Source: Occultella glacieicola
GTDB taxonomy: Bacteria; Actinomycetota; Actinomycetes; Actinomycetales; Beutenbergiaceae
Direction: 5' to 3'
Assembly (NCBI RefSeq): GCF_004353825.1
Contig: NZ_SMNA01000016.1
Span: forward strand, 1-64,000
DNA: 64,000 bases
This document shows, in pieces, positions 36,553 through 57,593 of the stretch. Position 1 is the first letter of the stretch, and every line of letters begins with the position of its first letter. Below the pieces are notes generated by a model. It was not told where the DNA came from, searched no databases, and saw only the letters and a list, made by a program, of their open reading frames with translations. The position numbers and the translations under genes are program-made.

Positions 36553-36574
36553 GACAAACGGAGAGGGTGACCTG

Positions 36575-39761: not shown

Positions 39762-41261
39762 TCAGGCGTAGAGACCGGGCACCGACAGGTACTTGAGTTC
39801 CTGGTACTCGAGCAGACCCTCGGGTCCCCCTTCGCGGCCGAGACCGGACTGCTTGATGCCGCCGAAGGGTGCTGCGACGTTCGAGATCAGGCCGCGGTTG
39901 ATGCCGACCATCCCGGACTCGAGGCTGCCCGCCACCCGCCGGGCGCGGTCGACGTCCTGCGTCATCACGTACGCGGCCAACCCGTGCTCGGTGTCGTTCG
40001 CGATGCGCACGGCGGCGTCCTCGTCGGTGAATCGGTGGATCGAGACGACCGGGCCGAAGACCTCCTCGGACATGATCGCCGCGTCCAGCGGGACGTGATC
40101 GAGCACGATGGGGGCGAAATAGGTGCCTTGGGGGTCATCGGGCATGGGGGCCTGATCGATGACGACGGCGCCGCGCGCCACCGCATCATCGACGAGCCGG
40201 GTGGCCTTGGCGACCGCACGATCGTCGATGAGGGGGCCGAGGTCGACTCCATCGTCGAGTCCGGGGCCGACGCGCACGGCCGCCATCCGCTCACCGATCC
40301 GGCGGGCGAAGTCGTCGGCGATGCCGTCCTGGACCAGGAACCGGTTGGCCGCCACGCAGGACTGGCCGCCCAGGCGCATCTTGGCGATCATCGCCTGGTC
40401 GATGGTCACGTCGAGATCCGCGTCGTCGAAGACCAGGAACGGGGCGTTGCCGCCGAGTTCCATCGAGGTGCGCAGGACGCGGCGGCCGGCCTGTTCCAGG
40501 AGGAGCCTGCCCACCGGGGTGGACCCCGTGAACGAGAGCTTGCGCAGCCGGGGGTCCTCGATCAGCCGGGAGCAGACCCCGGCGGCATCTGTCGTGGTGA
40601 AGACGTTGACCACCCCGGCCGGGGCGCCGGCCTCCCGGACGATCGCGGCGAACGCGAGCGTGACCAGCGGAGTCAGGTCTGCGGGCTTGACCACGACGGT
40701 GCATCCGGCAGCGATCGCGGGGGAGACCTTGCGGGCCACCATCGCGAGCGGCACGTTCCAGGGGGTGATCAACAGGCACGGCCCGACGGGCTCGGTCACT
40801 GTGATGAAGTGGGACTGGCCGTCCGGTGCTGGAGTGCTGCGACCGCCGGGGCGGACGGCCTCCTCGGCGAACCAGCGGACGAAGTCCGCCGCGTAGTCGA
40901 CCTCGCCGCGGGCCTCGGTCAGCGTCTTGCCGACCTCGAGGGTGATCAGTGTGGCAAGCACCTCGCGCCGCTCCCGCATGAGTTCGAAGGCTCGGCGCAG
41001 GACGTCGGCGCGCCGGCGCGGGGCCGATCGGGCCCAGGACGGCCCGGCCGCCACCGCGGCGTCCAGCGCCGCCAGCCCGTCATCGATGCCGCAGTCGGCG
41101 ACCTGCGCGAGCGCAGCGCCCGTCGCCGGATCGGTGACGGTGAAGGTGCGGCCGGATGCTGGCTCGCGCCAGGATCCGGCGAGGTAGCCGGAGGGCACCG
41201 CGCTCAGCGCGGCCGACATGGCCGAGTCGTCCCGGCCCGGGGCGGTGGCGATGCTGGACAT
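39762..41261 (-). CDS. Aldehyde dehydrogenase, succinate-semialdehyde dehydrogenase type
   Basis: 499 residues from ATG 41261, one base after the aminotransferase stop. Catalytic Cys302 in GGQSC, Glu268 in MELGG and Asn169 in PWN are all present. The GabD-like features (GQSCVAANRF, PFGGIKQSGLGREGG) suggest oxidation of a semialdehyde such as succinate semialdehyde. It works naturally after the class III aminotransferase encoded just upstream. Confidence 0.9.
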   Translation of the reverse strand: MSSIATAPGRDDSAMSAALSAVPSGYLAGSWREPASGRTFTVTDPATGAALAQVADCGIDDGLAALDAAVAAGPSWARSAPRRRADVLRRAFELMRERREVLATLITLEVGKTLTEARGEVDYAADFVRWFAEEAVRPGGRSTPAPDGQSHFITVTEPVGPCLLITPWNVPLAMVARKVSPAIAAGCTVVVKPADLTPLVTLAFAAIVREAGAPAGVVNVFTTTDAAGVCSRLIEDPRLRKLSFTGSTPVGRLLLEQAGRRVLRTSMELGGNAPFLVFDDADLDVTIDQAMIAKMRLGGQSCVAANRFLVQDGIADDFARRIGERMAAVRVGPGLDDGVDLGPLIDDRAVAKATRLVDDAVARGAVVIDQAPMPDDPQGTYFAPIVLDHVPLDAAIMSEEVFGPVVSIHRFTDEDAAVRIANDTEHGLAAYVMTQDVDRARRVAGSLESGMVGINRGLISNVAAPFGGIKQSGLGREGGPEGLLEYQELKYLSVPGLYA

Positions 41262-41262
41262 G

Positions 41263-42516
41263 TCAACCGATCCTTTCGATCGAGACGAGATGCTCACCGA
41301 TGTCGGCGATCGCCGTCGTGAGTTCGTGCGCCGTTACCACGAACGGTGGGCAGACGTGCAGGGTGTTGTTCGTGATCAGGCGGGTCAGCACTCCGGAGTC
41401 GCGGACCGCACGCACGACCTCGCCGCCGTCCAACTCGGGCACCAGCTGGATGCCCGCCATCAGACCGACGGACCGGACGTCTGCGACGAGTGGCGAGGTC
41501 GCCAGGTCATTCAGCGCGGTCTCCAGGACCGGTTCGAGTTCGCGCACCCGCTGCAGGAGCTGCTCCTCCTCGAGGATGTCGAGGTTCGCCATGGCGACGG
41601 CGCAGACGGTGGCGTGACCCGAATACGTGAGCCCGTGCCGGAACATCGGTGCGTCGTCGCCCAGGAAGAACGGCTCCGCGAGGTGCGGAGCGATCGCGAC
41701 GGCCCCGAGCGGGAGATAGCCCGAGGTGACCCCCTTCGCCATCGTGATCATGTCCGGCTCGATGCCCCAGCGCTCGCAGGCGAACATCGCGCCGGTGCGG
41801 CCGAATCCGGTGATGACCTCATCGGCGACGAGCAGGATCTTGTGGCGGCGGGTCAGTTCCCGCAGGCCCTGAAGATAGCCGGTCGAGGGTGGGAAGACGC
41901 CGCCGGTGCCGACCACGGGCTCGACCACGAGGGCGGCGATGTTCTCGGGACCGATCTCGAGAATGATCCGTTCGGTCTCGGTCAGGTCGTCCCGGGGGAC
42001 GCGAGCGGTCTCGGGGATGAGCGAGTCGGAGCCGTAGCCGTCCCGGTTGAACCCGAGGCCGGCGATCGACGTGCCGAAGCCGTGCAGCCCGTGGTAGCCG
42101 GTGTCCCGGCTGAGGATGACGGTCCTCGCCGGCTCGCCGACGGTCTGCCAGTACCGGCGCGCGAGCTTGCAGGCGGTGTCGATGGAGTCGGAGCCCCCGG
42201 AGGTGAAGAAGATGGTCGCGGACTCGATCGGGACCAGGTCCGAGAGGCGGTCTGCCAGGTCGAGCGCGGGGCGCGTCGCGTGTGCGCCGAAGAGGTGGTA
42301 CGTCTCGAGCGTGGACATCTGTTCGGCTGCGACGTGGGCGAGGCGCTCGCGACCGTGTCCGATGTTCGCGTGCCACAGACCGGCGGGGAGGTCCAGCAGG
42401 CGTTGGCCGTCCTCGGTGGTGACCCAGGCGCCGTCGCCCGATGCGATGACGAGTCGGTCGCGCGAGGCGCTCGGCATGTGGGTCTGGGGGTGCCACAGGG
42501 TGCCGATCGTGGACAT
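41263..42516 (-). CDS. Class III PLP aminotransferase
   Basis: 417 residues from ATG 42516 with an excellent SD (GAGGAGAG). PLP Lys261 in MAKGVTSG and Asp232 in ADEVITGFGRTG are seen. The family transfers amino groups from omega-amino acids, diamines or beta-alanine to pyruvate or 2-oxoglutarate. Together with the aldehyde dehydrogenase it would turn an omega-amino compound into a carboxylate. Confidence 0.9.
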   Translation of the reverse strand: MSTIGTLWHPQTHMPSASRDRLVIASGDGAWVTTEDGQRLLDLPAGLWHANIGHGRERLAHVAAEQMSTLETYHLFGAHATRPALDLADRLSDLVPIESATIFFTSGGSDSIDTACKLARRYWQTVGEPARTVILSRDTGYHGLHGFGTSIAGLGFNRDGYGSDSLIPETARVPRDDLTETERIILEIGPENIAALVVEPVVGTGGVFPPSTGYLQGLRELTRRHKILLVADEVITGFGRTGAMFACERWGIEPDMITMAKGVTSGYLPLGAVAIAPHLAEPFFLGDDAPMFRHGLTYSGHATVCAVAMANLDILEEEQLLQRVRELEPVLETALNDLATSPLVADVRSVGLMAGIQLVPELDGGEVVRAVRDSGVLTRLITNNTLHVCPPFVVTAHELTTAIADIGEHLVSIERIG

Positions 42517-42595
42517 GTTCTCTCCTCGTTCAGGTCGGTGCAGGCAGCGGACGCGTCGCGGTGGGCCCCCGGAGGAACCCACCGCGGCGTCGGCT

Positions 42596-43036
42596 TCAGG
42601 AGACGGGAGTCAGCGCGCTCTCGACGGAGAACTCGTCGATCACTTCGGCGTGGATGTGGAGCATCCGGGCGAGCAGGCCGTTGCCCCGGGTGAATGCCAG
42701 GGGGAGCTCGCCACCCGCCGCGACGGCCTTCTTGGTGCCGTCGAAGAACGCCGGGCCCTGGTCCGGGCGGCCGTCGGATTTGTCGTCGGGGTAGAGCGGG
42801 TTGATCGTGTTCTCGATCTTGGGCCAGAGGGCCCGGGCCGCCTCCGTGGACTCGAACTCGAGGGCGAGCACGAGCGTGTTGTCGAGGAGTTCACCGGCTG
42901 ACTCCTGAAGAACGTAACCGCCGAGGTAACCGGGGTGGCCGTCGAGCTCGCGGAGCCAGGAGCCGAGGTAGTGCCGGGCCTCCTCGGCGCGGTTCGGCTC
43001 GGCCACGAAGATGAACAGGTCACGGCGCTTCGTCAT
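42596..43036 (-). CDS. Small uncharacterised protein, possible dimeric alpha/beta-barrel (ABM-like)
   Basis: 146 residues; clear SD (GAGAAGGA). The start MTKRRDLFIFVAEPN, then a helix and YLGGYVLQE, reads like one ferredoxin-like repeat of the antibiotic-biosynthesis-monooxygenase fold; the C-terminal 60 residues are not recognised. It sits between the CDF and aminotransferase genes in the same direction. Function unknown. Confidence 0.65.
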   Translation of the reverse strand: MTKRRDLFIFVAEPNRAEEARHYLGSWLRELDGHPGYLGGYVLQESAGELLDNTLVLALEFESTEAARALWPKIENTINPLYPDDKSDGRPDQGPAFFDGTKKAVAAGGELPLAFTRGNGLLARMLHIHAEVIDEFSVESALTPVS

Positions 43037-43133
43037 GAGTTTCCTTCTCTCTCTTGTCCGGTCACGATGCCCTGCAGAGCTGCGGTGGATCGCCGGTGCG
43101 GGCCGAATGGGCGGCCCGCACCGGCGGGTCTGG

Positions 43134-44462
<1,329 letters not shown>

Positions 44463-44527
44463 TCGAACCGTGTCCTGTCTGCGGTCGAGGGACGGTGCAA
44501 CTGGAGCGTCGTGATATTTCACGTCGT

Positions 44528-44571
44528 ACGTTACAAGCGGCTGGAAGGGTAGTCAAGTAATTGTCGACAAT
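44528..44571 (-). promoter_or_regulatory. Promoter and operator of the CDF-aminotransferase operon
   Basis: On the reverse strand TTGACT (44556-44551), a 17-bp spacer and TAACGT (44533-44528) form a promoter 60 bp before the CDF start. A perfect ATTGTCGACAAT operator (44560-44571) lies 3 bp upstream of the -35 box. Confidence 0.65.
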
Positions 44572-44641
44572 CATTTCCGGATGGTCTAAATCCCTCGCAC
44601 GTATGTGGTTCGTGCCTGGTTAGGCAAGGCGAACCTGTCAC

Positions 44642-44653
44642 TGTGTCGACAAT
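44642..44653. promoter_or_regulatory. Degenerate regulon operator
   Basis: TGTGTCGACAAT matches the palindrome at 10 of 12 bases. It lies 9 bp past the stop of the SoxA-like gene and 82 bp from the stronger site at 44560, so it is probably an auxiliary site. Confidence 0.45.
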
Positions 44654-44662
44654 ATTGCCGCG

Positions 44663-45811
44663 CTAGGGCGCACCGCCGGTGGTGAGGCTGCGCTTCGGAT
44701 CGAACCGGGACAATTGCCACGGCGACTGCCCGTGCGCGACGAGATCGGCGATCCATTCGCCGGTGACCGGTGACGACTTGTAACCGGCCCCGGAGAACCC
44801 GCAGGCGGCGATGACCTGCGGGCTGTCGGGCAGCCGTCCCACGAACGGGTGCCCGTCCACGGAGTAGCCCTCCGGCTGGGCGGCCACCGCCACAGGCGTC
44901 GGGTGCAGGCCCGGGAAGAACCGCGCGATCACTGCGCTGAAGTCGGCCAGGCGTTCGGCCGTGACCTCGGGGTAGCGGCCCTTCATGTCTGCGATCGGGG
45001 GGTGTGGATCCGTTGAGATCCCGATCTTGACCGTCGCGCCGTCGATCGTGGGGAACCCGTAGCATTTGACGTCGCCGACGCGCTCGAAAACCGCGAACGC
45101 GGGCGCCCGGTACCGCGAGATGTCCCTGGGGGCATACCAGGCTTGCGGGTTCAGGCGGGGGATGATCGTCGGCCGCCGGTAAGGCAGCAGGTGCTCGGCC
45201 CACGCGCCCGGTGCGATCACCGCCCACCGGAACCGCAGGCGTTCGTCACCGGTCTCGACGATGACGCCCCGGTCCTCGGGATGGACTGCCGTGACGGGTG
45301 TGTACTCGCGGATCACCGCACCGCCACGGCGGGCGGCGTCGGCCGCGGCGAGAATGCCCAGTTCCGGGCGCAGGTACCCCGTCAGCTCGTCCCAGACGCC
45401 GAGGTCGCAGTCGCGCACGAGATGCTGAGGAAAGCGTGCCCTGAGTGCGTCCGGCTCGAGCAGGTCGTGGCGGATACCCTCTTCCTCGGCCGTTCGGATC
45501 AGCCGGACCAGATCGGGTGTGTCCGCCGGGCCGAGGATGATGCCGCCCGTCCTGACGTACAACTGATGGCCGGAGGTGCGCTCGAGATCGCGCCACAGCG
45601 TGCGGCTGTACGTCAGGGTGGGCGTCAGCTCGGGTGCCGCGAGGCTGAACGGGGCGATCCGTCTGGTCTGGCCCGCGGACGCACCCCGGTGGTTCGGCAC
45701 ACCGAACTGCTCGAACGCATGCACGCTCAGGCCCCGCTCGGTCAGGCGCCAAGCGGTCATGCTCCCGACCGCTCCAACCCCGATGACGGCGACGTCGGCC
45801 TCGTAGGTCAC
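44663..45811 (-). CDS. FAD-dependent amine oxidase, SoxA/MTOX-like (copy 2)
   Basis: 382 residues from GTG 45811 (AAGGGAG 8 bp upstream), the same length as the copy at 35404. GVGAVG (11-16) binds FAD. HRGASAGQTRR and YRAPAFAVFERVGDVKCYGF are close to the paralogue. The covalent-flavin cysteine of MSOX is again missing: the aligned segment is AQPEGYSVD, with Gln at the Cys position. It probably acts on a related secondary amine. It is the last gene of a leftward unit with the DadA-like and GNAT genes. Confidence 0.85.
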   Translation of the reverse strand: MTYEADVAVIGVGAVGSMTAWRLTERGLSVHAFEQFGVPNHRGASAGQTRRIAPFSLAAPELTPTLTYSRTLWRDLERTSGHQLYVRTGGIILGPADTPDLVRLIRTAEEEGIRHDLLEPDALRARFPQHLVRDCDLGVWDELTGYLRPELGILAAADAARRGGAVIREYTPVTAVHPEDRGVIVETGDERLRFRWAVIAPGAWAEHLLPYRRPTIIPRLNPQAWYAPRDISRYRAPAFAVFERVGDVKCYGFPTIDGATVKIGISTDPHPPIADMKGRYPEVTAERLADFSAVIARFFPGLHPTPVAVAAQPEGYSVDGHPFVGRLPDSPQVIAACGFSGAGYKSSPVTGEWIADLVAHGQSPWQLSRFDPKRSLTTGGAP

Positions 45812-45833
45812 GGTGAGTTCTCCCTTGATCGGG

Positions 45834-47003
45834 CTACTGATATCCGGAGATACGCACCGGTTCGGCCGCCGCAGGAGTGCTCGTGGACCTGCTGCGGAAC
45901 CGTGTCGGGCGAAAGTCGGCCAGATCGGGAGCGTCGGTGCCGTCGACGATCTCCTCCCGTGCCAGTCGCCCGAGCAGTGGGGCGAGGGTCACTCCGCTGT
46001 GCGTCGCGATCGTGTAGAGCCGCCGGTCGTCGTCGACGAAGCCGGCTACGGTCAGACGGTCCTCCGGGAGGACGCGCCAGCCCACCACGAGGCTCTCGAG
46101 GCGACCTCCGGCCGCGTCGCGAAGGGCTCCCGCCAACTCGGCCAGCAGTTCTCTCGCAACGGTGCCATCGAGCGGAGGAGTCGACGCGGGGTCGGCGTCC
46201 GCGTCGAGCCTCGGCGCCTGCAGCAAGATGCGACCGCCACCGTGGGGCCGCAGGTTGAGCGACGGTGTTGTGACAAGCCGGTCGAGGGACACCGCGAGCG
46301 GGCTCGTGACGCCCAGGAACCCTACCGGCGAGCTGCCCGGCCCGGTGTACGGCTGCAACGGAATGTGCGCGCCGGCGCTCTTCATCAGTGCCTCGGTCCA
46401 CCGGCCGACGCAGACGATCGCGCCATCTGCCTCGATCCATTCTCCGTCGGCCAACCTCACGCGGACGCCGCCGGGCCGAGGGTTGACCTCCGTGACCGCG
46501 CAGGGATACCGGACCCTCCCGCCGTGCCCGCGGAGGTCGGCGATCATGCGCGCGATCATGGTGAGCGGGTAGCAGTGCCCCTCAGTGGGGAAGTACGTGA
46601 CGCCCTCCACCCCCTCGGGGAGGATGAGGCCGGGCTCGAGGGCCAGGGCTTCGGTCCGGGTCAGGACCTCGACCGGATAATCCTCGCGTTCGACCTCGGC
46701 CCGCACGACCGCGAGCGCCTCGTCCTCGGCGCCCGGATGTGCCCAGCGGAGGTGGCCCCGGCGGCTCCACCACGGGGCGCCGTCGCCCGCGAAGCGGTCG
46801 TGCTCCGCCATCGCCATGGCGTTCAGGCGCCGGTAGGCCTCTGGGCGTTTCTGGCTCGAGTTGACCCAGGCGAAGGACGTGCCGCTGGTGCCTGCGCCCG
46901 GATGCTGTGCCTCCAAGAGGGTCACCTCCACGCCCGCGGCGGCTAGTTCGCGGGCGGCGGCCGCCCCGAGAACGCCCGCTCCGATCACGATCCAGTGCGG
47001 CAC
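45834..47003 (-). CDS. FAD-dependent glycine-oxidase/DadA-like enzyme
   Basis: 389 residues from GTG 47003 (GGAGG with 8-bp spacer). GAGVLG (8-13) is the FAD motif, and FPTEGHCYP with GVTLAPLLGRL are typical of the DAO superfamily. SFAWVNSSQKRPEAY near residue 43 is often seen in oxidases of N-substituted glycines. It lies 22 bp before the second SoxA-like gene, so both are translated from one mRNA. The substrate is not determined. Confidence 0.83.
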   Translation of the reverse strand: MPHWIVIGAGVLGAAAARELAAAGVEVTLLEAQHPGAGTSGTSFAWVNSSQKRPEAYRRLNAMAMAEHDRFAGDGAPWWSRRGHLRWAHPGAEDEALAVVRAEVEREDYPVEVLTRTEALALEPGLILPEGVEGVTYFPTEGHCYPLTMIARMIADLRGHGGRVRYPCAVTEVNPRPGGVRVRLADGEWIEADGAIVCVGRWTEALMKSAGAHIPLQPYTGPGSSPVGFLGVTSPLAVSLDRLVTTPSLNLRPHGGGRILLQAPRLDADADPASTPPLDGTVARELLAELAGALRDAAGGRLESLVVGWRVLPEDRLTVAGFVDDDRRLYTIATHSGVTLAPLLGRLAREEIVDGTDAPDLADFRPTRFRSRSTSTPAAAEPVRISGYQ

Positions 47004-47060
47004 GGCGCAACCTCCAGGTCGAACGGTCAGATGATCGGCGCGAACGGGCGGTCGACGCCG

Positions 47061-47606
47061 TCAGGGGCTGAGGGTCAACTCGCCGAACTCGTAGAACATG
47101 GCGTTGGTCGGGCCGTCGGTGTCGTCCACGACCAGCTGGGCGCCCATCGCCGTCCAGAATGGAACGGCGCCGGGGGAATGAAGGAACGTGTGCAGCACGA
47201 CCTTGTCGTAGTGCCCCTCCGCCTGGGCCCGTTCGAGAACCGCCCGAACGATGGCCTTGGCGATGCCGCGTCGGCGGGCCTCGCGCAGGACGTAGACGCG
47301 GACGACCTGCCCCACACGTGGGTTGTCATAGGCCTCGATGAGGTGCCGCGGGCTCGTGTCGCCCTTGAGTTTGCCGCCGCGGATGCCGCCGGTCGCGATG
47401 ATCCTCCCGGTCGCGTCGTCTACGGCGACCAGCATGAATGGGCCGACCGGCCGCACGTAGGTGTCGACCAGGAAGTCGATGTCGTCGTGGATCGTCGGGT
47501 CGTACTCGGACTGGAAGTCCTCCCGCACCGACCGCATCATCACATGGGCCGCGCCCGCGATGTCGTCCTCGGCGTCGGAGACCTCGCGGATCGTGAAATC
47601 TGACAT
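47061..47606 (-). CDS. GNAT-family N-acetyltransferase
   Basis: 181 residues from ATG 47606 with GGGAGGAA upstream. The acetyl-CoA loop is VRVYVLREARRRGIAKAIV (motif RRxGIA). The N-terminal DDIAGAAHVMMRSVREDF and C-terminal FWTAMGAQLVV are usual. It is first in the leftward regulon unit and may N-acetylate an amine intermediate or substrate; note the M20 deacylase elsewhere in the regulon. Confidence 0.85.
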   Translation of the reverse strand: MSDFTIREVSDAEDDIAGAAHVMMRSVREDFQSEYDPTIHDDIDFLVDTYVRPVGPFMLVAVDDATGRIIATGGIRGGKLKGDTSPRHLIEAYDNPRVGQVVRVYVLREARRRGIAKAIVRAVLERAQAEGHYDKVVLHTFLHSPGAVPFWTAMGAQLVVDDTDGPTNAMFYEFGELTLSP

Positions 47607-47699
47607 TGCAGTTCCTCCCGGTCGGTGTGACGGACATGTCCGCGCGTGATACCGCCAGGTCGCGGGTGGGGTGCCAGATCGACGCGACCTTGCGCCTCG

Positions 47700-47744
47700 A
47701 CCGTAGCGAGCGACTTCTCGTCGTGTCAACAGGTTGTCGACAAT
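47700..47744 (-). promoter_or_regulatory. Promoter and operator of the GNAT-oxidase unit
   Basis: On the reverse strand TTGACA (47729-47724), an 18-bp spacer and TACGGT (47705-47700) form a promoter. The operator GTTGTCGACAAT (47733-47744, 11/12) is just upstream, and a half-site TGTCAACA covers the -35 box. Confidence 0.6.
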
Positions 47745-47949
47745 GTATCGATGCGGGTCGTGAGCCGGCCCGGGCGGCGAGCGTGCGGCCGGCGGGCTGG
47801 CGGCGAATGGCGCCAGTACCTCAACGGCTGTTCGCGAGAATGAGAGGAATCTGGCTGATCGCGGACGGACGTCGAAACTCGGAACGACTGCAGATTGTGT
47901 GACGCGCTGCTCGCCGGAAGCGTGTCGACGTATCGGACCCGGGTGCCTA

Positions 47950-47983
47950 ACTGTTGACAATTAAGTCCGAGGCTGCCTAGCCT
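47950..47983 (+). promoter_or_regulatory. Promoter and operator of the HAD-importer operon
   Basis: ACTGTTGACAAT (47950-47961, 11/12) contains the -35 box TTGACA (47954-47959). An 18-bp spacer leads to TAGCCT (47978-47983). It would drive the rightward operon from 48084. The rest of the 477-bp divergent region (47745-47949) shows no gene or clear signal. Confidence 0.6.
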
Positions 47984-48758: not shown

Positions 48759-48786
48759 CCGGCTCACTGACGGAAAGGGTCGGTCG

Positions 48787-50064: not shown

Positions 50065-50112
50065 TACGTACGAGTGTGATCACGGTGCCCGACTACAGAC
50101 GAGGAGACGGAC

Positions 50113-51057
50113 ATGCTCTACCTCTTGCGACGCGTCGTCGTCCTGTTGACGACGCTGCTGCTTGTTTCGTTCCTCGTGTTCATGCTTCCGTACCTGACGC
50201 CGGGAGACCCGGCACGAAAGATCCTTCGGGCCAGGACCGGCGATCTCGACCTCGATCCCGAGACGGTCGAGCGATTGCGCATCGAGTACGGCCTCGACCT
50301 CCCGATCATGCAGCAGTACTGGAACTGGCTGAAGGACGCGCTCGGGGGCGACATCGGTATCTCCTATACCAGCGGGCGTCCGGTCGCCGGGATGCTCGGA
50401 TCGGCATTGGCGAACACAGCGACGCTCGCGATCTCGGCTCTGCTGTTCGCGCTGGTGGTCGCACTGATCCTCGGGACGATCGCAGCCGTCAAGCGGGGTA
50501 AGCCGGCGGACAGCGTGATCACCACGATCACACAGGGTTTCGTGGCGATCCCCGAGTACTGGATGGGGCCGCTCCTGGTCCTCGTGTTCGCACTGAACAT
50601 GGGGGTGCTTCCATCGGCAGGCTGGAAAGGGCCGCTTTGGATGATCCTGCCGTGCCTGACCCTCGCGCTGCGACCGATGAGCTACTTCACCCAGGTCACC
50701 AGAGCCTCGATGGTGGACGTCCTCGAATCGCCGCACATCACGGCAGCCCGAAGCAGGGGGCTGAGTTTTGGCGAGACCATGCTCAAACATGGCGTTCGGA
50801 ACGCCCTGCTGCCGGTCGTGACGCTGTTCTCGGTCTGGCTTGCCGGACTGCTCGGTGGTTCGGTGGTGGTCGAGGTCATCTTCGCCATCCCCGGGATGGG
50901 CCGGATGCTCTACCAGGCGATTACGAACGGTGACGTACCGATCATCCAGGCGAGCGTGGTGTGCGTGGTCGGTCTCACGGTCATCATCACGACCGCCACG
51001 GACGCGTTGTACCGACTGATCAACCCGACCGTGAGGACGAGCCATGGCACTCGTTGA
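50113..51057 (+). CDS. Opp/Dpp/Nik-type ABC permease (DppB-like)
   Basis: 314 residues; SD GGAGACGG. N-terminal TM (LLRRVVVLLTTLLLVSFLVF) then PGDPAR, six TMs and the EAA loop TAARSRGLSFGETMLKHGVRNA. This family imports dipeptides, nickel, and metal-opine complexes (CntB). It overlaps the next permease gene by 14 bp. Confidence 0.92.
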   Translation: MLYLLRRVVVLLTTLLLVSFLVFMLPYLTPGDPARKILRARTGDLDLDPETVERLRIEYGLDLPIMQQYWNWLKDALGGDIGISYTSGRPVAGMLGSALANTATLAISALLFALVVALILGTIAAVKRGKPADSVITTITQGFVAIPEYWMGPLLVLVFALNMGVLPSAGWKGPLWMILPCLTLALRPMSYFTQVTRASMVDVLESPHITAARSRGLSFGETMLKHGVRNALLPVVTLFSVWLAGLLGGSVVVEVIFAIPGMGRMLYQAITNGDVPIIQASVVCVVGLTVIITTATDALYRLINPTVRTSHGTR

Positions 51058-51946
51058 CAATCCCGCCTCGGAGGCACTGGACGGCACCGCTCGCGTCATC
51101 CCGATGCGTGGTTCCGCCGCGGTCCGCGGGTGGGAGCACCTGCGGACCTGGCCGACCAGCCTCCGCGTCGGCGTCGCACTGTTCCTGACGATCGCCGTGC
51201 TGCTCGTGCTCACGCCGTGGATCGCGCCCTACGACCCCGCCGCCCAGGATCTGGAGAACCGCCTCGCCGCGGGCTCACCTGCGCATCTCCTCGGCACCGA
51301 CCATCTCGGTCGCGACGTGCTCTCCCGGCTGCTCTGGGGCGGGCGGTACTCGGTCTCCATCGCCGCCGTCACCTTGGTCCTGTGCTCGGTGTTCGGCACG
51401 GTGCTCGGGCTGCTGTGCGCCCGGATCGGGGGCGCATTCGACGAGCTCGTCATGCGACTGACGGATGTCGCACTCGCCTTTCCCGAGATGGTAATCGCGA
51501 TGTTCCTGGTCGCGATCCTTGGACCGAGCTACGGCACGCTCATCCTCGCCCTGGTGCTGACGGGCTGGACCCCGTTCGCCCGCCTCGCCCGAGGACTGGC
51601 CCTCGAGATCAACTCGCGGGACTTCGTGGAGGCGGCGGAGGCTCTTGGCATGTCGCGTCGGTTCATCGTCTTCCGGCACCTGCTGCCGAACGCGCTGAGC
51701 CCGTTGCTCGCACACGCCGCCCTTCGGTTCGGACACAAGCTCATTGCGGTCGGCGCGCTGTCCTATCTCGGACTTGGCGTCCAGCCGCCGGACTCGGACT
51801 GGGGTTCGATGCTCGCCGACGGCCAGCCCTACATGACCCGCCTCGCCGGCCTCGTGGTCTACCCAGGCCTCGCGATCTTCATCACCGCGCTCGCCGTGAC
51901 GCTCATCGGGCAGGGGATCAACACCCGTAGGAACAGGCAGGGATGA
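51044..51946 (+). CDS. Opp/Dpp/Nik-type ABC permease (DppC-like)
   Basis: 300 residues. The N-terminal cytoplasmic tail is followed by TM1, then LLGTDHLGRDVLSRLLWGGR, the DppC hallmark, and the EAA loop EAAEALGMSRRFIVFRHLLPNA. YLGLGVQPPDSDWG near the end is also typical. It pairs with the preceding permease. Confidence 0.92.
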   Translation: MALVDNPASEALDGTARVIPMRGSAAVRGWEHLRTWPTSLRVGVALFLTIAVLLVLTPWIAPYDPAAQDLENRLAAGSPAHLLGTDHLGRDVLSRLLWGGRYSVSIAAVTLVLCSVFGTVLGLLCARIGGAFDELVMRLTDVALAFPEMVIAMFLVAILGPSYGTLILALVLTGWTPFARLARGLALEINSRDFVEAAEALGMSRRFIVFRHLLPNALSPLLAHAALRFGHKLIAVGALSYLGLGVQPPDSDWGSMLADGQPYMTRLAGLVVYPGLAIFITALAVTLIGQGINTRRNRQG

Positions 51947-51986
51947 GGGCATCATGAGTGACTCGATCACGGCAAAGGGGAGAACC

Positions 51987-52703
51987 ATGGCAGCAAAGGA
52001 AAGTGGCACGCCGAAGGTGCGCAAGCGCACGTTGTCTTCCGTCGTCACATCACAGATGCGCCAGCGGATCGTCGATGGGACCTTTCCGCCAGGCTCGCAA
52101 CTGAACGAGGTCGAGCTGGCCCGACGCTTCGCCACGAGTCGCGGCCCGGTCCGGGAGGGCATGCAACGGCTGGTCCAGGAAGGCTTGCTCGTCAGCGAGC
52201 CGCATCGGGGCATGTTCGTGCCGCTCCTGGACGAGAGTGACATCGCGGACCTCTACTACGCACGGGCAGCCGTGGAGCGGGCAGCGATGCTCCGGCTGGT
52301 GGACCAGGGCGTGACCGCTGCGACCGTGGCCAATCTCGAGCAGGCGCTTGGTGAGATGGCGGCCGCGATCGAACGGGAGGATTGGGGCGCCGTGGCCACC
52401 TCCGACCTCCGCTTCCACGAGCTCATCGTGGATGCCTCGGGAAGTCCGCGACTGAGCAGGATGTACGCCGCCCTCGCGGGCGAGAGCAGGCTCGCCATCA
52501 ACATCTTGGTCGGCAGCTACGACGGTCGGACTGACTACCTCGAGGAGCACGCCAAGATCTTCGAGCTCCTCGTGGCCGGGAATCGCTCCGGACTCCTCGG
52601 GGAACTCAGCCGGCACCTGCAGACCGGGCAGGACACCGCGACCAAGAACAGCCGGGGTGCTGTCGCGGACTCCGCCGCAGCAGTTCGAGACACGACGACC
52701 TGA
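51987..52703 (+). CDS. GntR-family FCD-domain regulator inside the importer operon
   Basis: 238 residues from ATG 51987, preceded by AAGGGGAG; an upstream ATG 51954 has a poorer SD. Winged helix at about 20-75 (VELARRFATSRGPVREGMQRLVQEGLL) and an FCD domain (RAAVERAAMLRLV, FHELIVDASG). It sits between permease and ATPase genes, so the operon may control itself. Its HTH core (SRGPVREGMQRLV) is similar to that of the regulator at 33479 (GRTPVREALQRLV), so the two may read similar operators. Confidence 0.88.
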   Translation: MAAKESGTPKVRKRTLSSVVTSQMRQRIVDGTFPPGSQLNEVELARRFATSRGPVREGMQRLVQEGLLVSEPHRGMFVPLLDESDIADLYYARAAVERAAMLRLVDQGVTAATVANLEQALGEMAAAIEREDWGAVATSDLRFHELIVDASGSPRLSRMYAALAGESRLAINILVGSYDGRTDYLEEHAKIFELLVAGNRSGLLGELSRHLQTGQDTATKNSRGAVADSAAAVRDTTT

Positions 52704-52726
52704 GACACCACTGCATCGGAGGAGCC

Positions 52727-53719
52727 ATGCCCGATCAACTCGAGATCGACAACCTCACCGTCTCGTTCGGTGCCGAGGGTGCGCCACCGGTCCTGGACGG
52801 AGTCTCGCTCGGTGTCGCGAAGGGCGAGGTGCTGGCGATCGTCGGCGAGTCGGGCTCCGGCAAGAGCATGACCGCTATGTCGGTCATGAAGCTGCTACCG
52901 CGCGGCGCCAGGATGAAGGCGGGCGGGATCCGATTCGATGGCGTTGACATCCTCGGCGCGGACGAGCGAACGATGAACCGGATCCGGGGCGACCGGGTCA
53001 GCATGCTCTTCCAGCAGCCGAAACGGATGCTCGATCCGACGGCGACGGTCGGTCGTCAGGTGGCCGAACCCCTGCGGCGATACGCGGGACTGAGTCGGCA
53101 CAAGGCGGCCGATCGAGTCATCGAACTCCTATCCGACGTGGGCATCGCCGAGCCGGAACGTCGAGCGAAGGCGTACGCCCACCAACTCTCCGGCGGGATC
53201 GCCCAGCGGGTCATGATCGCGATGGCCCTGGCCGGTGAGCCCGAGTTGCTGATCGCCGACGAGCCGACGACGGCACTGGACGTCACGGTCGAGGTGCAGG
53301 TGCTCCGGCTGATCGCGACCAAGCGCGCGGAGCTCGGGATGTCGGTTCTGTTCATCTCGCACGACCTCGGTGTGGTCTCCTCGCTCGCGGACCGGATCGC
53401 GGTGATGTACGCCGGCCGGATCGTCGAGGTCGGCACCACGGACCAGATCCTCCGGCAGCCACAGCACCCGTACACCCGGTCGCTCATCAAGTGCGCGACC
53501 CTCGCCCGGGAGCTCGACGGCTCGCTGTTCGTCATCCCCGGCGACGTGAGCTCGGCGCGGTCGATCACCAAGGGATGCCGGTTCATGCCGCGATGCCCCG
53601 TGGTCGAGGAGGCGCACCTGCACGACTCCTGTGACGCCGAGGAGCCGCCACTGTCCGGCTGCGCGAACGGCCAGGTCAGCCGGTGCTGGGCCACCATCGA
53701 GACACGGAGGTCGGCGTGA
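52727..53719 (+). CDS. Opp/Dpp/Nik-type ABC ATPase (DppD-like)
   Basis: 330 residues; GGAGGAG directly before ATG. Walker A GESGSGKSM, signature LSGGIAQR, Walker [14 protein letters not shown]-terminal CRFMPRC as in the Opp/Nik ATPases. The signature has Ile-Ala in place of the common Met-Arg. Its stop overlaps the next start as GTGA. Confidence 0.92.
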   Translation: MPDQLEIDNLTVSFGAEGAPPVLDGVSLGVAKGEVLAIVGESGSGKSMTAMSVMKLLPRGARMKAGGIRFDGVDILGADERTMNRIRGDRVSMLFQQPKRMLDPTATVGRQVAEPLRRYAGLSRHKAADRVIELLSDVGIAEPERRAKAYAHQLSGGIAQRVMIAMALAGEPELLIADEPTTALDVTVEVQVLRLIATKRAELGMSVLFISHDLGVVSSLADRIAVMYAGRIVEVGTTDQILRQPQHPYTRSLIKCATLARELDGSLFVIPGDVSSARSITKGCRFMPRCPVVEEAHLHDSCDAEEPPLSGCANGQVSRCWATIETRRSA

Positions 53720-54762
53720 GCACGCAAGTGGTCGGACAACGGACGGCCGCCGAGTCCGGGCACCACGACATGGTGGTCCTCGACAACGTCGTCAAGTACT
53801 TCACGTTGTCCCGGACATCCCTGTTCCACGCCCCCGATGCCGTCCACTCGGTCGACGGTGTTTCCCTTCGGATCGAGGCGGGTGGGGTGCTCGGCCTGGT
53901 CGGTGAGTCCGGATCGGGCAAGAGCACCCTCGCGCGCGTGATCCTGACCCTGCTACGGAGTACCTCGGGCACTGTGACCATCGACGGCGTCGATGTCACC
54001 AACCTCTCCCAGGGGGCGATGCGCCGTGTCCGTCGCACGGCCCAGATGGTTTTCCAGGATCCGCACGCCGCGATGGATCCACGCATGACGATCGGCGAGA
54101 GCATGACGTCGGTGCTGACCCAGCACGGCGTGGGAACGCGTGCCGAGCGCCGGGACCGAGTCTCGCTGGCGCTGAGTGAGGTCGGTCTCGACGACAGTTA
54201 CATCGACCGCTACCCCGGGGAGTGCTCGGGTGGCCAACTGCAGCGCGTCGGGATCGCTCGAGCGCTCCTGCTCGACCCGAAGGTGCTGATCTGTGACGAG
54301 CCGACCTCGGCCCTGGACGCCTCGGTCCAGGCACGCGTCCTGAACCTCCTCGACCGGATCAAGGACGAGCGTGAACTCACGATGATCATGATCTCCCATG
54401 ACCTGCGTGTGGTTCGCCATGTCGCGGACCGGGTCGCGGTCATGTACCTCGGGCAGATCGTGGAGGTTGCCGACCGCGAGAAGCTCTTCACCGGGGCCAG
54501 CCACCCCTACACGATCGCTCTGCTCGCGGCAGGCCTGGAGTCGGGACGGCGGCACGAGGCCACGGTGGTCGCAGCCGGTGAGCCACCGTCGCCGATCCAT
54601 CCGCCGGCCGGTTGCCGGTTCAACACCCGCTGCCCGCTCGCAACCGACCGGTGCCGGGAGGAGATGCCGGAGCTCCGCGAAGTCGGAGCCGACCACGAGG
54701 TGCGCTGCCACCGGTGGGAAGAGGCTCGCGGGTTGCTGTGCGCCGACGAGACGGCACCATGA
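53716..54762 (+). CDS. Opp/Dpp/Nik-type ABC ATPase (DppF-like)
   Basis: 348 residues from GTG 53716 (GGAGG 5 bp upstream). Walker A GESGSGKST, signature CSGGQLQR, Walker B VLICDEPTSALD and C-terminal CRFNTRC. The first about 25 residues are an extension before VLDNVVKYF. The stop overlaps the aldehyde dehydrogenase start as ATGA, tying transport to catabolism in one operon. Confidence 0.92.
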   Translation: MSTQVVGQRTAAESGHHDMVVLDNVVKYFTLSRTSLFHAPDAVHSVDGVSLRIEAGGVLGLVGESGSGKSTLARVILTLLRSTSGTVTIDGVDVTNLSQGAMRRVRRTAQMVFQDPHAAMDPRMTIGESMTSVLTQHGVGTRAERRDRVSLALSEVGLDDSYIDRYPGECSGGQLQRVGIARALLLDPKVLICDEPTSALDASVQARVLNLLDRIKDERELTMIMISHDLRVVRHVADRVAVMYLGQIVEVADREKLFTGASHPYTIALLAAGLESGRRHEATVVAAGEPPSPIHPPAGCRFNTRCPLATDRCREEMPELREVGADHEVRCHRWEEARGLLCADETAP

Positions 54763-56234
54763 CCACGGCTCCCGTCCTGGTGCCGAGGCGCCAGGTCTGG
54801 ACCCCGCCGGGCGGCGCCTTCTGGGCCGGTGTGTGGCAGCCGGTCGGACGGCCGCTGGAGGTGCGTGATCCGGAGGACGGTGCGCTGGTCGGTGTGGTGA
54901 CGGACTCAACCGCTGCCGACGTCGCCGTCGCCGTGGATCACCTAGCCGCCCGCTGGGACCGGGTCGCCTGGCCGTTGTGGGCGCGACGTGCCGCTCTCGA
55001 GGAGACCGCCACCCGACTGACCGACCTCACGGAGACCTTCGTGAACCTGATCTCCACGGAGGGATGCAAGACGATCGCGGAGGCGCGCACGGAGGTGGCG
55101 CGCGCCGTCGAGACCCTGCATACGTCCGCCCGCGCCACGGCTGAGCTCGAAGGCGCGACCGTGCCCTTCCAGGACACCCGCCGCGGAGCGGGCTGGACAG
55201 GCTGGTACTCCAGGGAGCCGGTCGGTCTGGTCGCGGCGATCACACCGTTCAACGACCCGCTGAACCTCGTCGCGCACAAGCTCGGCCCGGCTCTGATCGC
55301 GGGCAACGGTGTGATACTCAAGCCGGCGCAGAGCACGCCGTTGACCGCTCTGGCGCTCGTGCAGATCCTCGTTGAGTCCGGCGTGCCTGGCGAGCGGCTT
55401 GCGGTGCTGGCTGGTCACCAGGCAGGTCCCGCGCTGGTGGCCGACCCGCGCATCGACGTCGTCTCGTTCACCGGCGGACCGGCAACCGCCGATCGGATCG
55501 CCGCCGGTGGCCGGGCCCGGCGCCTACTCATGGAACTCGGTGGCAACAACGCGCTGATCGCCTGTGCCGATGCTGACCCGGCGCGCGTCGCCGACGCGAT
55601 CGTCGGCGGGGCGTTCGGCACCGCGGGCCAGAGCTGCCTATCAGTGCAGCGTGCGTTCGTCGCGGACGCCATCTTCCCGGAAGTTCTCGAGCGGGTCGTC
55701 TCCGGCGCCCGGCGCGTCGTTGCCGGCAGCAAGAGGGATCCACACTCGGACATCGGACCGCTGATCACGACGGCGGAAGCGGTGCGAGTCCAGGCGTGGG
55801 TCGTGGAGGCTGTAGCGGGCGGGGCCGTGGTCCGTACCGGTGGGACCCGATCCGGGGCGTTCGTGACGCCCACCGTGCTCACGGACGTTCCGGTCGACGC
55901 GAGGATTCGTCGCGAGGAGGTGTTTGGCCCGATCGTCATGCTCGAGCCGTTCGACACCCTCGCTGACGCGATCGATTCGGCCAACGCTGTCGACACCGGG
56001 CTGCAGGCGGGGGTCTTCACGCGAGATATCGACACCGCGTTGACCGTCGCGCGGCGCCTGCGGGTGGGCGCGGTGATGATCAATGAGAGCTCGGACTTCC
56101 GCATCGACGCGATGCCGTTCGGCGGTTTCAAGCGGTCCGGCATCGGCCGGGAGGGCATCGCCGAGATGATCCGCGAACTGACCGAACCGAAGATCGTTGC
56201 AATCCGGGCGCCCGCGCCCGATCAGGAGAGTTGA
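54759..56234 (+). CDS. Aldehyde dehydrogenase (second)
   Basis: 491 residues from ATG 54759. Asn165 in TPFNDPLN, Glu259 in MELGG and Cys293 in GQSC form the active site. ITPFNDPLNLVAHKLGPA is the pattern of lactaldehyde, phosphonoacetaldehyde and non-phosphorylating glyceraldehyde-phosphate dehydrogenases. It probably oxidises the aldehyde released by the PuuB-like oxidase, for example a glyoxylate- or semialdehyde-type product. Confidence 0.9.
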   Translation: MTTAPVLVPRRQVWTPPGGAFWAGVWQPVGRPLEVRDPEDGALVGVVTDSTAADVAVAVDHLAARWDRVAWPLWARRAALEETATRLTDLTETFVNLISTEGCKTIAEARTEVARAVETLHTSARATAELEGATVPFQDTRRGAGWTGWYSREPVGLVAAITPFNDPLNLVAHKLGPALIAGNGVILKPAQSTPLTALALVQILVESGVPGERLAVLAGHQAGPALVADPRIDVVSFTGGPATADRIAAGGRARRLLMELGGNNALIACADADPARVADAIVGGAFGTAGQSCLSVQRAFVADAIFPEVLERVVSGARRVVAGSKRDPHSDIGPLITTAEAVRVQAWVVEAVAGGAVVRTGGTRSGAFVTPTVLTDVPVDARIRREEVFGPIVMLEPFDTLADAIDSANAVDTGLQAGVFTRDIDTALTVARRLRVGAVMINESSDFRIDAMPFGGFKRSGIGREGIAEMIRELTEPKIVAIRAPAPDQES

Positions 56235-56244
56235 GGAATACCTG

Positions 56245-57255
56245 GTGGACACCCATGGCGGGCACGATCACGGTCCCGCGGATCACGATGATGACGAGCA
56301 TGGCCGGGTGGGAGCCGGCCGGTCGAAACATGGCCATGGTCACGGGCACAACCACAGCCACGGGATGACCGCCACCGGGCGCCACCGCAAGCGTCTGATC
56401 GCCGTCCTGTGCATCACGGGATCGGTCATGGTCGCCCAGGCGGTCGGGGCCTGGATCTCCGGCTCGCTCGCGCTGCTCGCCGACGCAGGGCACATGCTGA
56501 CGGACTCGGCGGGCCTGGCGATCGCCCTGGTTGCGGCGTCGCTGGCCATGCGGCCGGCCACCGACGCGCGTACGTATGGCTGGCAGCGGGCCGAGGTGCT
56601 CGCGGCGCTCGCGAACGCGACGATTCTGTGTGCGGTAGGCGTCCTGGTCATCCGCGAAGCCTTCCTCCGCTGGAACACCGAACCCGAGATTCAGGGCGGC
56701 CTCATGCTCTGGGTCGCAGTCGGCGGGGCCGTCGCGAACGCCGTCTCGTTGATCATCCTGCTGCGAGCGAGCGGCGAGTCCCTGAACATGCGCGGGGCCT
56801 ACCTCGAGGTTCTCGGCGACCTGCTCGGCTCGATCGCCGTCATCGTCGCGGCCATCGTGATCCTGACGACAGGGTGGCTGCGCGCCGATGCGTTGGCCTC
56901 GTTCGCGATCGGGGTCCTGATCCTGCCCAGGGCGGTGTCACTGCTGCGGGACGTCGCCAGGGTCCTGATGGAGGCGACGCCGCAGGGAGTCGATCTCAGT
57001 GAGGTCAGGTCGCACATGGAGGCCCTGCCCGGCGTCGAGGAGGTGCACGATCTGCACGTCTGGACGATCACGTCGGGCGTCCCGGTGCTTTCGGCGCACG
57101 TGGTCCTCGACAGCGCCGAGGTAGATCGCGAGCTCGAGTGTGCGGCCCTGGACAGTCTGGCGGACTGCCTCCGCGGCCACTTCGACGTGGACCACTGCAC
57201 GTTCCAGATCGAGCCGCAGGGGCACGCCCACCATGAGCATGCACTGCATGCGTGA
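56245..57255 (+). CDS. Cation diffusion facilitator (CzcD/ZitB type) with His-rich N-terminus
   Basis: 336 residues from GTG 56245, 10 bp after the aldehyde dehydrogenase stop. Residues 4-39 are His-rich (KHGHGHGHNHSHG). TM2 has the normal H83-x3-D87 (GHMLTD). In TM5 the usual His is Glu188 (E188-x3-D192 in LEVLGD), which may change metal choice. Six TMs and a C-terminal domain with HDLHVWTITSG (about 270) are typical of CzcD. It is the last gene of the importer-oxidase operon. Confidence 0.92.
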   Translation: MDTHGGHDHGPADHDDDEHGRVGAGRSKHGHGHGHNHSHGMTATGRHRKRLIAVLCITGSVMVAQAVGAWISGSLALLADAGHMLTDSAGLAIALVAASLAMRPATDARTYGWQRAEVLAALANATILCAVGVLVIREAFLRWNTEPEIQGGLMLWVAVGGAVANAVSLIILLRASGESLNMRGAYLEVLGDLLGSIAVIVAAIVILTTGWLRADALASFAIGVLILPRAVSLLRDVARVLMEATPQGVDLSEVRSHMEALPGVEEVHDLHVWTITSGVPVLSAHVVLDSAEVDRELECAALDSLADCLRGHFDVDHCTFQIEPQGHAHHEHALHA

Positions 57256-57311
57256 GTTCGCGGCCGGCGCCCGAGATGCGGTCCGGACGCCTCGCTCCGA
57301 CTTGCCGGCGC

Positions 57312-57328
57312 ATACCCCCTAGGGGTAT
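57312..57328. promoter_or_regulatory. CsoR-like copper operator
   Basis: ATACCCC-CTA-GGGGTAT is a perfect palindrome with 7-bp arms. It matches the GC-tract-containing operators of CsoR copper sensors that precede copZ/copA genes. It lies 56 bp before the HMA-protein start. No csoR gene is in the window. Confidence 0.75.
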
Positions 57329-57341
57329 CGTGATCCACGAT

Positions 57342-57364
57342 GACATACATCCAAGCCGTATGTC
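57342..57364 (+). promoter_or_regulatory. Inverted repeat in the leader of the HMA gene
   Basis: GACATAC (57342-57348) and GTATGTC (57358-57364) are perfect arms around a 9-nt loop, ending 11 bp before the SD. It could be an RNA hairpin or a second regulator site; function unknown. Confidence 0.4.
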
Positions 57365-57383
57365 CGAGCGAGAGGGAGATCTG

Positions 57384-57593
57384 ATGTCGACTGCCGTATT
57401 CGAGGTGACGGGTCTGCACTGCAGCAGCTGTGCCGGGAAGGTGTCGAGCGCCGTCAACACGGTCGACGGCGTCACGGGGGTGGAGCTCGACCTCGCCACC
57501 GGTCGGCTCTCGGTCACGTCCGGGGCGCCGATCGACGACAGCGCCATTGTGGCCGTGGTCACCGAGGCCGGCTACCAGGTCGCGCCCGCCTGA
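57384..57593 (+). CDS. HMA-domain copper chaperone-like protein (CopZ type)
   Basis: 69 residues; SD GAGGGAG 5 bp upstream. The metal motif is GLHCSSC (10-16) in a single ferredoxin-like HMA fold, the standard CopZ length. With the CsoR-type operator upstream it should be copper-induced. A CopA ATPase, normally adjacent, is absent; the next gene is a convergent MFS transporter overlapping by 35 bp. Confidence 0.9.
   Translation: MSTAVFEVTGLHCSSCAGKVSSAVNTVDGVTGVELDLATGRLSVTSGAPIDDSAIVAVVTEAGYQVAPA

Follow-up and report, generated by a model that had tools for sequence, protein, structure and literature searches.

The window analyzed here, the first 64,000 nucleotides of contig NZ_SMNA01000016.1 of the actinobacterium Occultella glacieicola (assembly GCF_004353825.1), carries a group of catabolic operons that enclose two metal exporters of the cation diffusion facilitator (CDF) family and are preceded by copies of one operator palindrome. 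With confidence just short of even, we read these operons as a regulon for the catabolism of a metal-loaded metallophore that contains azetidine-2-carboxylate. The substrate would most likely be plant nicotianamine or (deoxy)mugineic acid, nicotianamine itself being a less secure identification than an azetidine-containing metallophore as such. A fuller proposal, held more tentatively, is that metal–nicotianamine or metal–mugineate complexes are imported, that the ligand is burnt to aspartate and D-malate, and that the freed metal leaves through the CDF proteins, all under one operator; the pairing of a HAD hydrolase with a flavin adenine dinucleotide (FAD) oxidase, the HAD-FAD core, would then include the missing genes for destruction of these compounds.

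Genes were called with a codon-bias script, and those of the region of interest, together with most others in the window, were scanned with NCBIfam or Pfam. The region consists of two facing blocks, one on each strand. The minus-strand block encodes a GNAT acetyltransferase, two FAD oxidases, the exporter CDF1, a small protein (g34), a class III aminotransferase, a dehydrogenase resembling succinate-semialdehyde dehydrogenase, and an MmgE/PrpD protein. The plus-strand block encodes a HAD hydrolase, an FAD oxidase, two Opp/Nik permeases, a GntR regulator, two ATPases, an aldehyde dehydrogenase, the second exporter CDF2, and an HMA-domain protein. The same operator also precedes an M20 and GntR block (32159–34183), a block encoding a tartrate/D-malate-type dehydrogenase, a SoxA-type oxidase, a short-chain dehydrogenase and a hydroxyaspartate-aldolase-like protein (34247–38388), and the genes of a Nik/Opp-type binding protein and a second HAD hydrolase (60336–62724). 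Profile scans bore out the FAD oxidases, the Opp/Nik-type importer, the MmgE/PrpD protein, the aminotransferase and the aldehyde dehydrogenases that the initial annotation had listed.

The case for shared control rests on the rarity and placement of the palindrome. Its 10-base core, TTGTCGACAA, occurs six times in the whole 5.34-Mb genome (23 contigs, about 70% G+C), and five of the copies lie in the window, all of them intergenic and ahead of regulon blocks, one just 5′ of CDF1. The sixth copy is inside a 785-residue open reading frame between transposase genes. With up to two mismatches allowed, the 12-base palindrome has nine sites in the window against 0.6 expected, and none of 100 shuffles reaches nine, in a control confined to the window. 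An exact match just upstream of CDF1 (44560–44571) is accompanied by a weaker copy (44642–44653); two sites occupy the divergent GNAT/HAD intergenic region (47733–47744 and 47950–47961), one lies upstream of the M20 gene (32093–32104), two precede the tartrate/D-malate-type dehydrogenase gene (34205–34216 and 34226–34237), and two lie upstream of the binding-protein gene (63332–63343 and 63457–63468). A consensus promoter scan found no promoter.

The palindrome is probably read by a GntR protein of the pathway. The candidate reader is encoded at 51954–52703 on the plus strand (ATG at 52056 also possible) and has homologues in five close relatives; a second GntR gene, identified by profile scan, lies at 33479–34183 on the same strand. 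An uncalled minus-strand open reading frame of 89 codons with a ribosome-site-like sequence (63030–63299) lies between the operator at 63332 and the binding-protein gene, and an FAD oxidase and a PucR-type regulator (29382–31998), divergent from the M20 gene, flank the operator at 32093.

The presence of two His-rich CDF proteins in one catabolic regulon, the observation from which the initial annotation set out, is confirmed. CDF1 (43134–44522, minus strand; start at GTG 44522 or ATG 44462) and the ZitB-like CDF2 (56245–57255, plus strand) reach 215 and 275 bits with TIGR01297 (cut-off 82) and 138 and 136 with PF01545 (cut-off 26.6), which places both in the family, and both carry a ZT_dimer domain. 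Within residues 1–140 of the open frames there are 34 and 13 histidines, respectively; the automatic start call for CDF1, at 44141, would remove its His-rich part. The motifs in transmembrane segments 2 and 5 (HNVGH/HARAD in CDF1 and HMLTD/EVLGD in CDF2) do not settle the metal exported. The genome contains seven CDF matches, these two among them. CDF2 starts 10 bp after the stop codon of the aldehyde dehydrogenase gene and is followed by a third metal-binding gene, that of the small HMA-domain protein (57360–57593, plus strand; PF00403). CDF1 is separated by 97 bp from g34, the small gene before the aminotransferase.

Comparison with other genomes was anchored on the FAD oxidase g41 (48787–50064, plus strand) and not on either exporter. 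In three genomes of the same genus g41 is absent at E 1e-70, as is the aminotransferase at the thresholds used, and g41 occurs in 6 of 396 genomes of the order, its own genome counted. Because g41 is missing from congeners and rare in the order, the cluster looks like an island, and the regulon was probably acquired horizontally. From a scan of named genomes the best 80 of at least 564 loci were taken, 58 of them spanning at least 19 kb and some cut by contig ends; five of 375 matching plasmid records were examined. With short loci (L010–L015) replaced by versions with longer flanks, and with L023, L024 and L026 left out as apparently belonging to genomes already in the set, 89 loci were compared. 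The HAD-FAD core is found in many actinobacterial and proteobacterial genomes.

A close clade, defined by an FAD oxidase at least 62% identical to g41 (a line drawn after the table had been seen, the next loci standing at 60%), comprises the window, plasmid pROB01 of Rhodococcus opacus B4, two Nonomuraea clusters, and clusters in genomes G021 and G039. A CDF gene accompanies the FAD oxidase in all six, within 10 kb in five and at about 12 kb in G039. In the close relatives, the exporter genes within 10 kb diverge from the binding-protein or HAD-FAD operon in a head-to-head arrangement, an operator-like site lying between. All five of the close relatives examined have such a site (two mismatches at most) between the binding-protein or HAD-FAD operon and a divergent CDF or GNAT operon. 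The G021 cluster holds two of the three CDF genes of its genome and, like the window, both CDF types and an HMA protein; its CDF2 homologue is 73% identical and its HMA homologue 45%. The only two CDF genes in the 4.1 Mb of G039 both lie within 19 kb of the FAD gene: one, about 12 kb away, follows an M20 gene that operator-like sites precede, and the other stands on the opposite side at about 18 kb. A chance estimate for CDF genes in five of the six close clusters, 7e-8, is too small, since it uses the CDF density of our own genome, treats related clusters as independent, and follows a post hoc 62% line. The R. opacus cluster also holds an ArsR-type metalloregulator, and a Novosphingobium locus whose FAD oxidase is 51% identical has copper-resistance genes within it.

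The small protein g34 (42596–43036, minus strand; 146 residues) is a marker of this type of cluster. None of the scans assigned it a family (nothing in Pfam or NCBIfam matches at E 0.001), and homologues occur in 3 of 394 genomes of the class, its own included. It is present in all six close clusters, and a homologue lies near CDF/GNAT genes in loci L016, L021, L022, L027 and L028. A further homologue is found near a HAD-FAD pair and a CDF gene in an acidimicrobial genome (L067).

It is the HAD hydrolases that point to an azetidine ring. The window encodes two, g40 (48084–48758, plus strand) and g53 (60336–61004, minus strand), which are 45% identical. When a profile built from 18 cluster HAD proteins was run against the PDB, L-azetidine-2-carboxylate hydrolase (3smv) came first with 123.5 bits, and the protein of 8hp5 followed with 122.4; the next matches were epoxide hydrolases at 72 bits and other haloacid dehalogenases at 68 or less. 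An AlphaFold2 model of g40 (pLDDT 96.3) gave a similar answer, the first six Foldseek matches being 8ywo, 8yvw and 3smv, titled azetidine-2-carboxylate hydrolase, together with 8hp5, 8hp6 and 8hp7. The last three are titled (S)-2-haloacid dehalogenase, but 8hp7 contains trapped (2R)-4-amino-2-hydroxybutanoic acid, which is what opening of the azetidine ring yields. Thus the nearest solved relatives of the cluster HAD proteins are azetidine-2-carboxylate-opening enzymes, and that activity is predicted for them from profile and model. Asp14 and Lys151, the catalytic pair of the HAD core, are invariant in 39 aligned cluster proteins and align with the positions mutated in 8yvw (D12N) and 8hp7 (K152A); as both are also common to dehalogenases, they are not specific for azetidine-2-carboxylate hydrolase. 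A HAD homologue occurs in 69 of the 89 loci, and in 31 of the 61 scanned loci having one at 36% identity or more it shares the strand of the FAD oxidase and precedes it by no more than 200 bp.

These assignments narrow the substrates that had been suggested. Compounds that contain azetidine-2-carboxylate, of the nicotianamine type, are favored by the HAD proteins, and opines, ethylenediamine disuccinate (EDDS), iminodisuccinate and nitrilotriacetate (NTA) are disfavored; to our knowledge, none of the latter has use for an azetidine-opening enzyme. The scheme of import, oxidation and metal export put forward by the initial annotation is partly supported and in fair shape, its substrate now narrowed towards one ring-containing class. 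Mugineic acids retain the azetidine ring of their precursor. Nicotianamine is described as an azetidine ring with two aminobutyrate arms that binds iron, copper, nickel, cobalt, zinc and manganese strongly (PMC10341464; ring and metal binding are also covered in PMC11794875), and as the compound from which mugineic acids are made (PMC7786132).

The proposed pathway would begin with uptake of the metal–ligand complex by the Nik/Opp-type binding protein and ATP-binding cassette (ABC) importer. FAD oxidases of the SoxA and DAO types act on the N–CH2 bonds of N-substituted amino acids, so the arms would leave as aspartate semialdehyde, a substrate for aldehyde dehydrogenase. In the presumed order of cuts, the FAD oxidases would cleave the secondary and tertiary N–CH2 bonds, and each of the two four-carbon arms would come away as the semialdehyde of aspartate (or malate). 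The four candidate oxidases differ in how closely they approach known families. The DAO-family enzyme g41, a putative N–C-cleaving oxidase, scores best with TIGR03329 and pipecolate oxidase, below both cut-offs, and at E 1e-20 matches two glycine oxidase entries only in the PDB; its earlier description as an FAD oxidase stands, and the label "PuuB-like" is loose. The enzyme at 45834–47003 (minus strand), a ThiO/HpnW-like amino acid oxidase, is below all cut-offs shown. That at 44663–45811 (minus strand), of the SoxA/N-methyltryptophan oxidase type, reaches 246.8 bits with PRK11259 (cut-off 257) and has sarcosine oxidase 7exs as its best PDB match, and the N-methyl-amino-acid-oxidase-type enzyme at 35404–36552 (plus strand) exceeds the same cut-off with 286 bits.

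The aldehyde dehydrogenase at 54759–56234 (plus strand, by profile scan) would oxidize the released semialdehydes to aspartate or malate, leaving the azetidine ring. The HAD hydrolase would open azetidine-2-carboxylate to (2R)-4-amino-2-hydroxybutanoate, which the class III aminotransferase (41263–42516, minus strand, by profile scan) may convert to malate semialdehyde and the dehydrogenase at 39762–41261 (minus strand) to D-malate. The latter enzyme scores 541 bits with TIGR01780 against a cut-off of 646, a resemblance to succinate-semialdehyde dehydrogenase and no assignment. D-Malate would then yield pyruvate through the tartrate dehydrogenase family enzyme (34247–35407, plus strand; ATG 34340 possible), a family of the kind that also decarboxylates D-malate, and the (2R) stereochemistry of the ring-opening product fits the presence of such an enzyme in the regulon. 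Read from 34247, this protein just exceeds the TIGR02089 cut-off (475.1 against 470.4) and falls below that of PRK08194 (468 against 501); its best PDB match is tartrate dehydrogenase 3flk at 344 bits, the next standing at 255. The GNAT protein (47061–47606, minus strand; PF00583, longer frame scanned) and the M20 amidohydrolase, a putative deacylase (32159–33457, plus strand; TIGR01891, 267 bits, cut-off 154), may keep the free ring acid, which is toxic, in check by adding and removing acetyl groups. The protein resembling 3-hydroxy-D-aspartate aldolase and D-serine dehydratase (37303–38388, plus strand; PF14031; NF045642, 172 bits, cut-off 690) would serve the hydroxylated arms of mugineic acid. 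A short-chain dehydrogenase (36575–37309, plus strand, by profile scan) completes that block. Destruction of the ligand would set the bound metal free in the cell, from which the two CDF pumps would export it.

The enzymes expected from such a pathway recur elsewhere. Homologues of the tartrate/D-malate-type dehydrogenase (at least 45% identical) occur in 39 of the 89 loci and enzymes like the succinate-semialdehyde dehydrogenase in 45. Aspartase-family genes are found in six, as would follow from aspartate being the end product of the aminobutyrate arms; the chance estimate, 5e-4 for five of the 80 scanned loci, assumes a density of two such genes per 5 Mb. In Rhodococcus koreensis a single row contains HAD, FAD oxidase, aldehyde dehydrogenase, tartrate/D-malate-type dehydrogenase, D-2-hydroxyacid dehydrogenase (by Pfam family) and aspartase, the last above the aspA cut-off; this row thus includes a candidate enzyme for each of the two predicted end products, aspartate and a D-2-hydroxyacid. 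In loci L088–L106 another GNAT protein is present in 17 of 19, and 11 of the 19 have no HAD in the compared stretch; perhaps acetylation replaces ring opening there. That GNAT gene was seen next to the FAD oxidase only in L018 and L020.

The importer is recognizable at the superfamily level. Profile scans identify an OppB/NikB-type permease (50113–51057), an OppC/NikC-type permease (51044–51946), and OppD- and OppF-type ATPases (52727–53719 and 53716–54762), all on the plus strand; the substrate-binding lipoprotein (61162–62724, minus strand) reaches 249.6 bits with Opp5A_nikA against a cut-off of 600, and its best PDB match is the nickel-binding protein 3t66. The set thus resembles Nik and Cnt importers in its permeases, ATPases and binding protein; in contrast to them, the window proteins lie below the curated Nik and Cnt cut-offs and are coupled to catabolism and metal export, not to metal supply. 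For the chelate-binding arginine of NikA, the HMMER alignment of the binding protein shows no clear equivalent, which is not decisive. OPT/YSL transporters, counted genome-wide, exceed the cut-off in 5 of 36 genomes and lend no support. Just upstream of the binding-protein gene, and reaching into the window at 63485–64000, are uptake genes of the iron-siderophore type (FecCD, ATPase and binding protein) with a siderophore-interacting protein.

Several observations weigh against a metallophore regulon. A perfect 15-pair G+C-rich hairpin follows the CDF1 stop codon (43070–43140; z −4.8) and a second G+C hairpin follows g34 (42510–42600; z −3.2), both lacking a T tract; they are possible attenuators, and they interrupt the CDF1 operon. 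For CDF1 and the aminotransferase gene, the evidence thus favors common control over a transcript that runs unbroken from one to the other. No operator-like site was found in locus L046, and no aminotransferase homologue at the expected place in the G021 cluster. The two exporters of G039 are only 48% identical to CDF1 and 41% to CDF2. A HAD homologue was not found in 20 of the 89 loci, some of which are cut short, and the binding protein matches no metallophore family above cut-off. Further points against it are given below with the alternatives.

The most serious alternative, which we regard as unlikely and yet deserving of attention, is that the food is free azetidine-2-carboxylate or an N-substituted derivative of it that does not chelate metal; the CDF genes would then be ordinary metal-resistance genes taken into the operon, or would deal with stray metal admitted by a leaky Nik-type importer. 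Use of azetidine-2-carboxylate by a HAD hydrolase and GABA-type (4-aminobutyrate-type) enzymes is documented in Pseudomonas A2C (AC-hydrolase) and Aspergillus nidulans (AzhA/NgnA), the fungus being described with a GABA route and a protective acetyltransferase (PMC8016842). The window shares with that system a HAD of predicted ring-opening activity, GABA-type enzymes and, by family only, the acetyltransferase of the fungus. Outside the close clade, moreover, just 2 of 83 loci have a CDF gene with the FAD oxidase (in Streptomyces milbemycinicus it lies upstream of the binding-protein gene, in an acidimicrobial genome directly after the FAD gene), so the exporters cannot be a universal part of the pathway, and metal export is no core need of it. 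The anticipated recurrence of CDF genes thus held in the six close clusters and failed in the distant ones. Their expected association with Opp-type importers fared likewise: a CDF gene is found in 6 of 14 loci with such an importer and in 1 of 75 without (Fisher p 3.3e-5), nearly all of it from the close clade, and outside that clade the figures are 1 of 8 and 1 of 75, on which we do not lean. Two distant clusters that were annotated, L053 and L069, have an amino-acid-type ABC importer, so a simpler ligand may be what the pathway usually consumes.

Against this alternative, the window adds to the known azetidine-2-carboxylate route FAD amine oxidases, a second aldehyde dehydrogenase, a tartrate/D-malate-type dehydrogenase, a Nik/Opp importer and metal exporters, a set that fits an N-substituted, metal-binding parent compound. 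The free amino acid should need neither N-alkyl-amine FAD oxidases nor a second aldehyde dehydrogenase nor an aspartase. The exporters of all six close clusters, the operator-like sites between divergent operons, and the occurrence of two CDF types with an HMA protein in both the window and G021 likewise favor a metal-loaded substrate.

It is improbable that the HAD proteins are dehalogenases or openers of some other ring, that a different N-substituted compound is degraded, and that the azetidine link is a mere family resemblance. This explanation draws on the fact that g40 (161.3 bits) and g53 (148.9 bits) both pass the cut-off of TIGR01428, haloacid dehalogenase type II (125.4), as do the HAD proteins of the three relatives scanned; the model may take in more than its title says. 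Identity of the cluster proteins to the solved azetidine-2-carboxylate hydrolases is only 25–28%, a haloacid dehalogenase stands close behind at Foldseek rank 7, and TM-scores do not separate the families. The profile, on the other hand, favors azetidine-opening enzymes over other dehalogenases by about 55 bits, and an ordinary dehalogenase was ranked lower on that account, though both proteins pass TIGR01428. There is also no evident reason for a dehalogenase to lie in the company of a tartrate/D-malate-type enzyme and oxidases that act on amines with FAD.

A little less credible still is another aminopolycarboxylate as substrate, such as iminodisuccinate, EDDS or a compound of the aspergillomarasmine type, with the MmgE/PrpD protein acting as an epimerase. 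That protein (g31; 38381–39739, minus strand, by Pfam) has iminodisuccinate epimerase 2hp3 as its best solved relative (E 5e-50), and the R. opacus cluster contains a lyase-family gene. The known routes for NTA, ethylenediaminetetraacetate (EDTA), EDDS and iminodisuccinate likewise treat a chelator as food, and iminodisuccinate epimerase is related to MmgE/PrpD; they differ in that the window shows FAD oxidases and HAD proteins, and the genes scanned in the region included no recognizable monooxygenase or C–N lyase. The profile matches of the R. opacus lyase are those of an aspartate ammonia-lyase (PRK12273, 716 against 510; aspA, 644.5, below the cut-off of 681), and MmgE occurs in the window only, among 92 rows compared. 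We know of no role for an azetidine-opening HAD or a D-malate-type dehydrogenase in pathways for iminodisuccinate, EDDS or compounds of the aspergillomarasmine type. With an epimerase relative present and no lyase in the scanned region, iminodisuccinate or EDDS was set aside as the principal interpretation.

We think it very unlikely that the CDF proteins serve the metal homeostasis of the catabolic enzymes or hitchhike with no link to the substrate. Stray metal genes are common on islands, and the CDF1 subfamily is itself widespread in actinobacteria (132 of 394 genomes of the class), for which reason the idea of CDF1 as a protein peculiar to the cluster was dropped. Set against this are the head-to-head layout with operator-like sites in R. 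opacus, the two Nonomuraea and G021, the position of both G039 exporters and two of the three G021 exporters near the cluster, and the retention of an exporter and not an importer. Least probable, and barely tenable, is catabolism of a staphylopine- or opine-type metallophore through a Cnt-like importer, a link proposed from the Opp/Nik superfamily membership and the weak Cnt matches that fails at the family level and was set aside, since the Cnt models lie far below their cut-offs (CntA 77 against 800, CntC 191 against 440, CntD 246 against 380, CntF 248 against 385) and the HAD proteins would have no role.

Beyond the regulon, the window contains at 885–2132 a RuBisCO-like gene, whose product is nearest to OiaX (401 bits, cut-off 700). 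Its neighbors are pectinesterase, BNR-repeat and GH127 genes, and this stretch is perhaps a plant sugar-acid island.

A metallophore regulon would bear on a question in soil biology. Phytosiderophores are reported to be rapidly degraded in soil, the taxa and genes responsible being unknown as of 2021; Pseudomonas fluorescens SBW25 appears to consume them, by inference in the same source, in which P. putida was negative and in which a porin, a transporter and an oxidoreductase are suggested for the task (PMC7786132). A second paper also considers the loss of deoxymugineic acid to soil microbes (PMC4143957). The likeness of the present system to this process lies in the predicted substrate class, mugineic and deoxymugineic acids. 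Among the best matches listed in openly licensed PMC full text, no gene set like this one was found for the catabolism of nicotianamine, phytosiderophores or metallophores, and the terms nicotianamine, mugineic and azetidine do not occur in the rhizoSMASH paper (PMC12462448).

Plants rely on phytosiderophores and nicotianamine as carriers of iron, zinc, copper and nickel. If the metallophore interpretation is true, the regulon provides candidate genes for the microbial destruction of plant iron and zinc carriers, and the degradation of these compounds can be put to the test in named bacteria that have the gene set, among them R. opacus B4, R. koreensis and Arthrobacter. It also suggests a principle, that catabolism of a metal chelate requires disposal of the metal, so that an exporter inside a catabolic operon can betray a metallophore as food.

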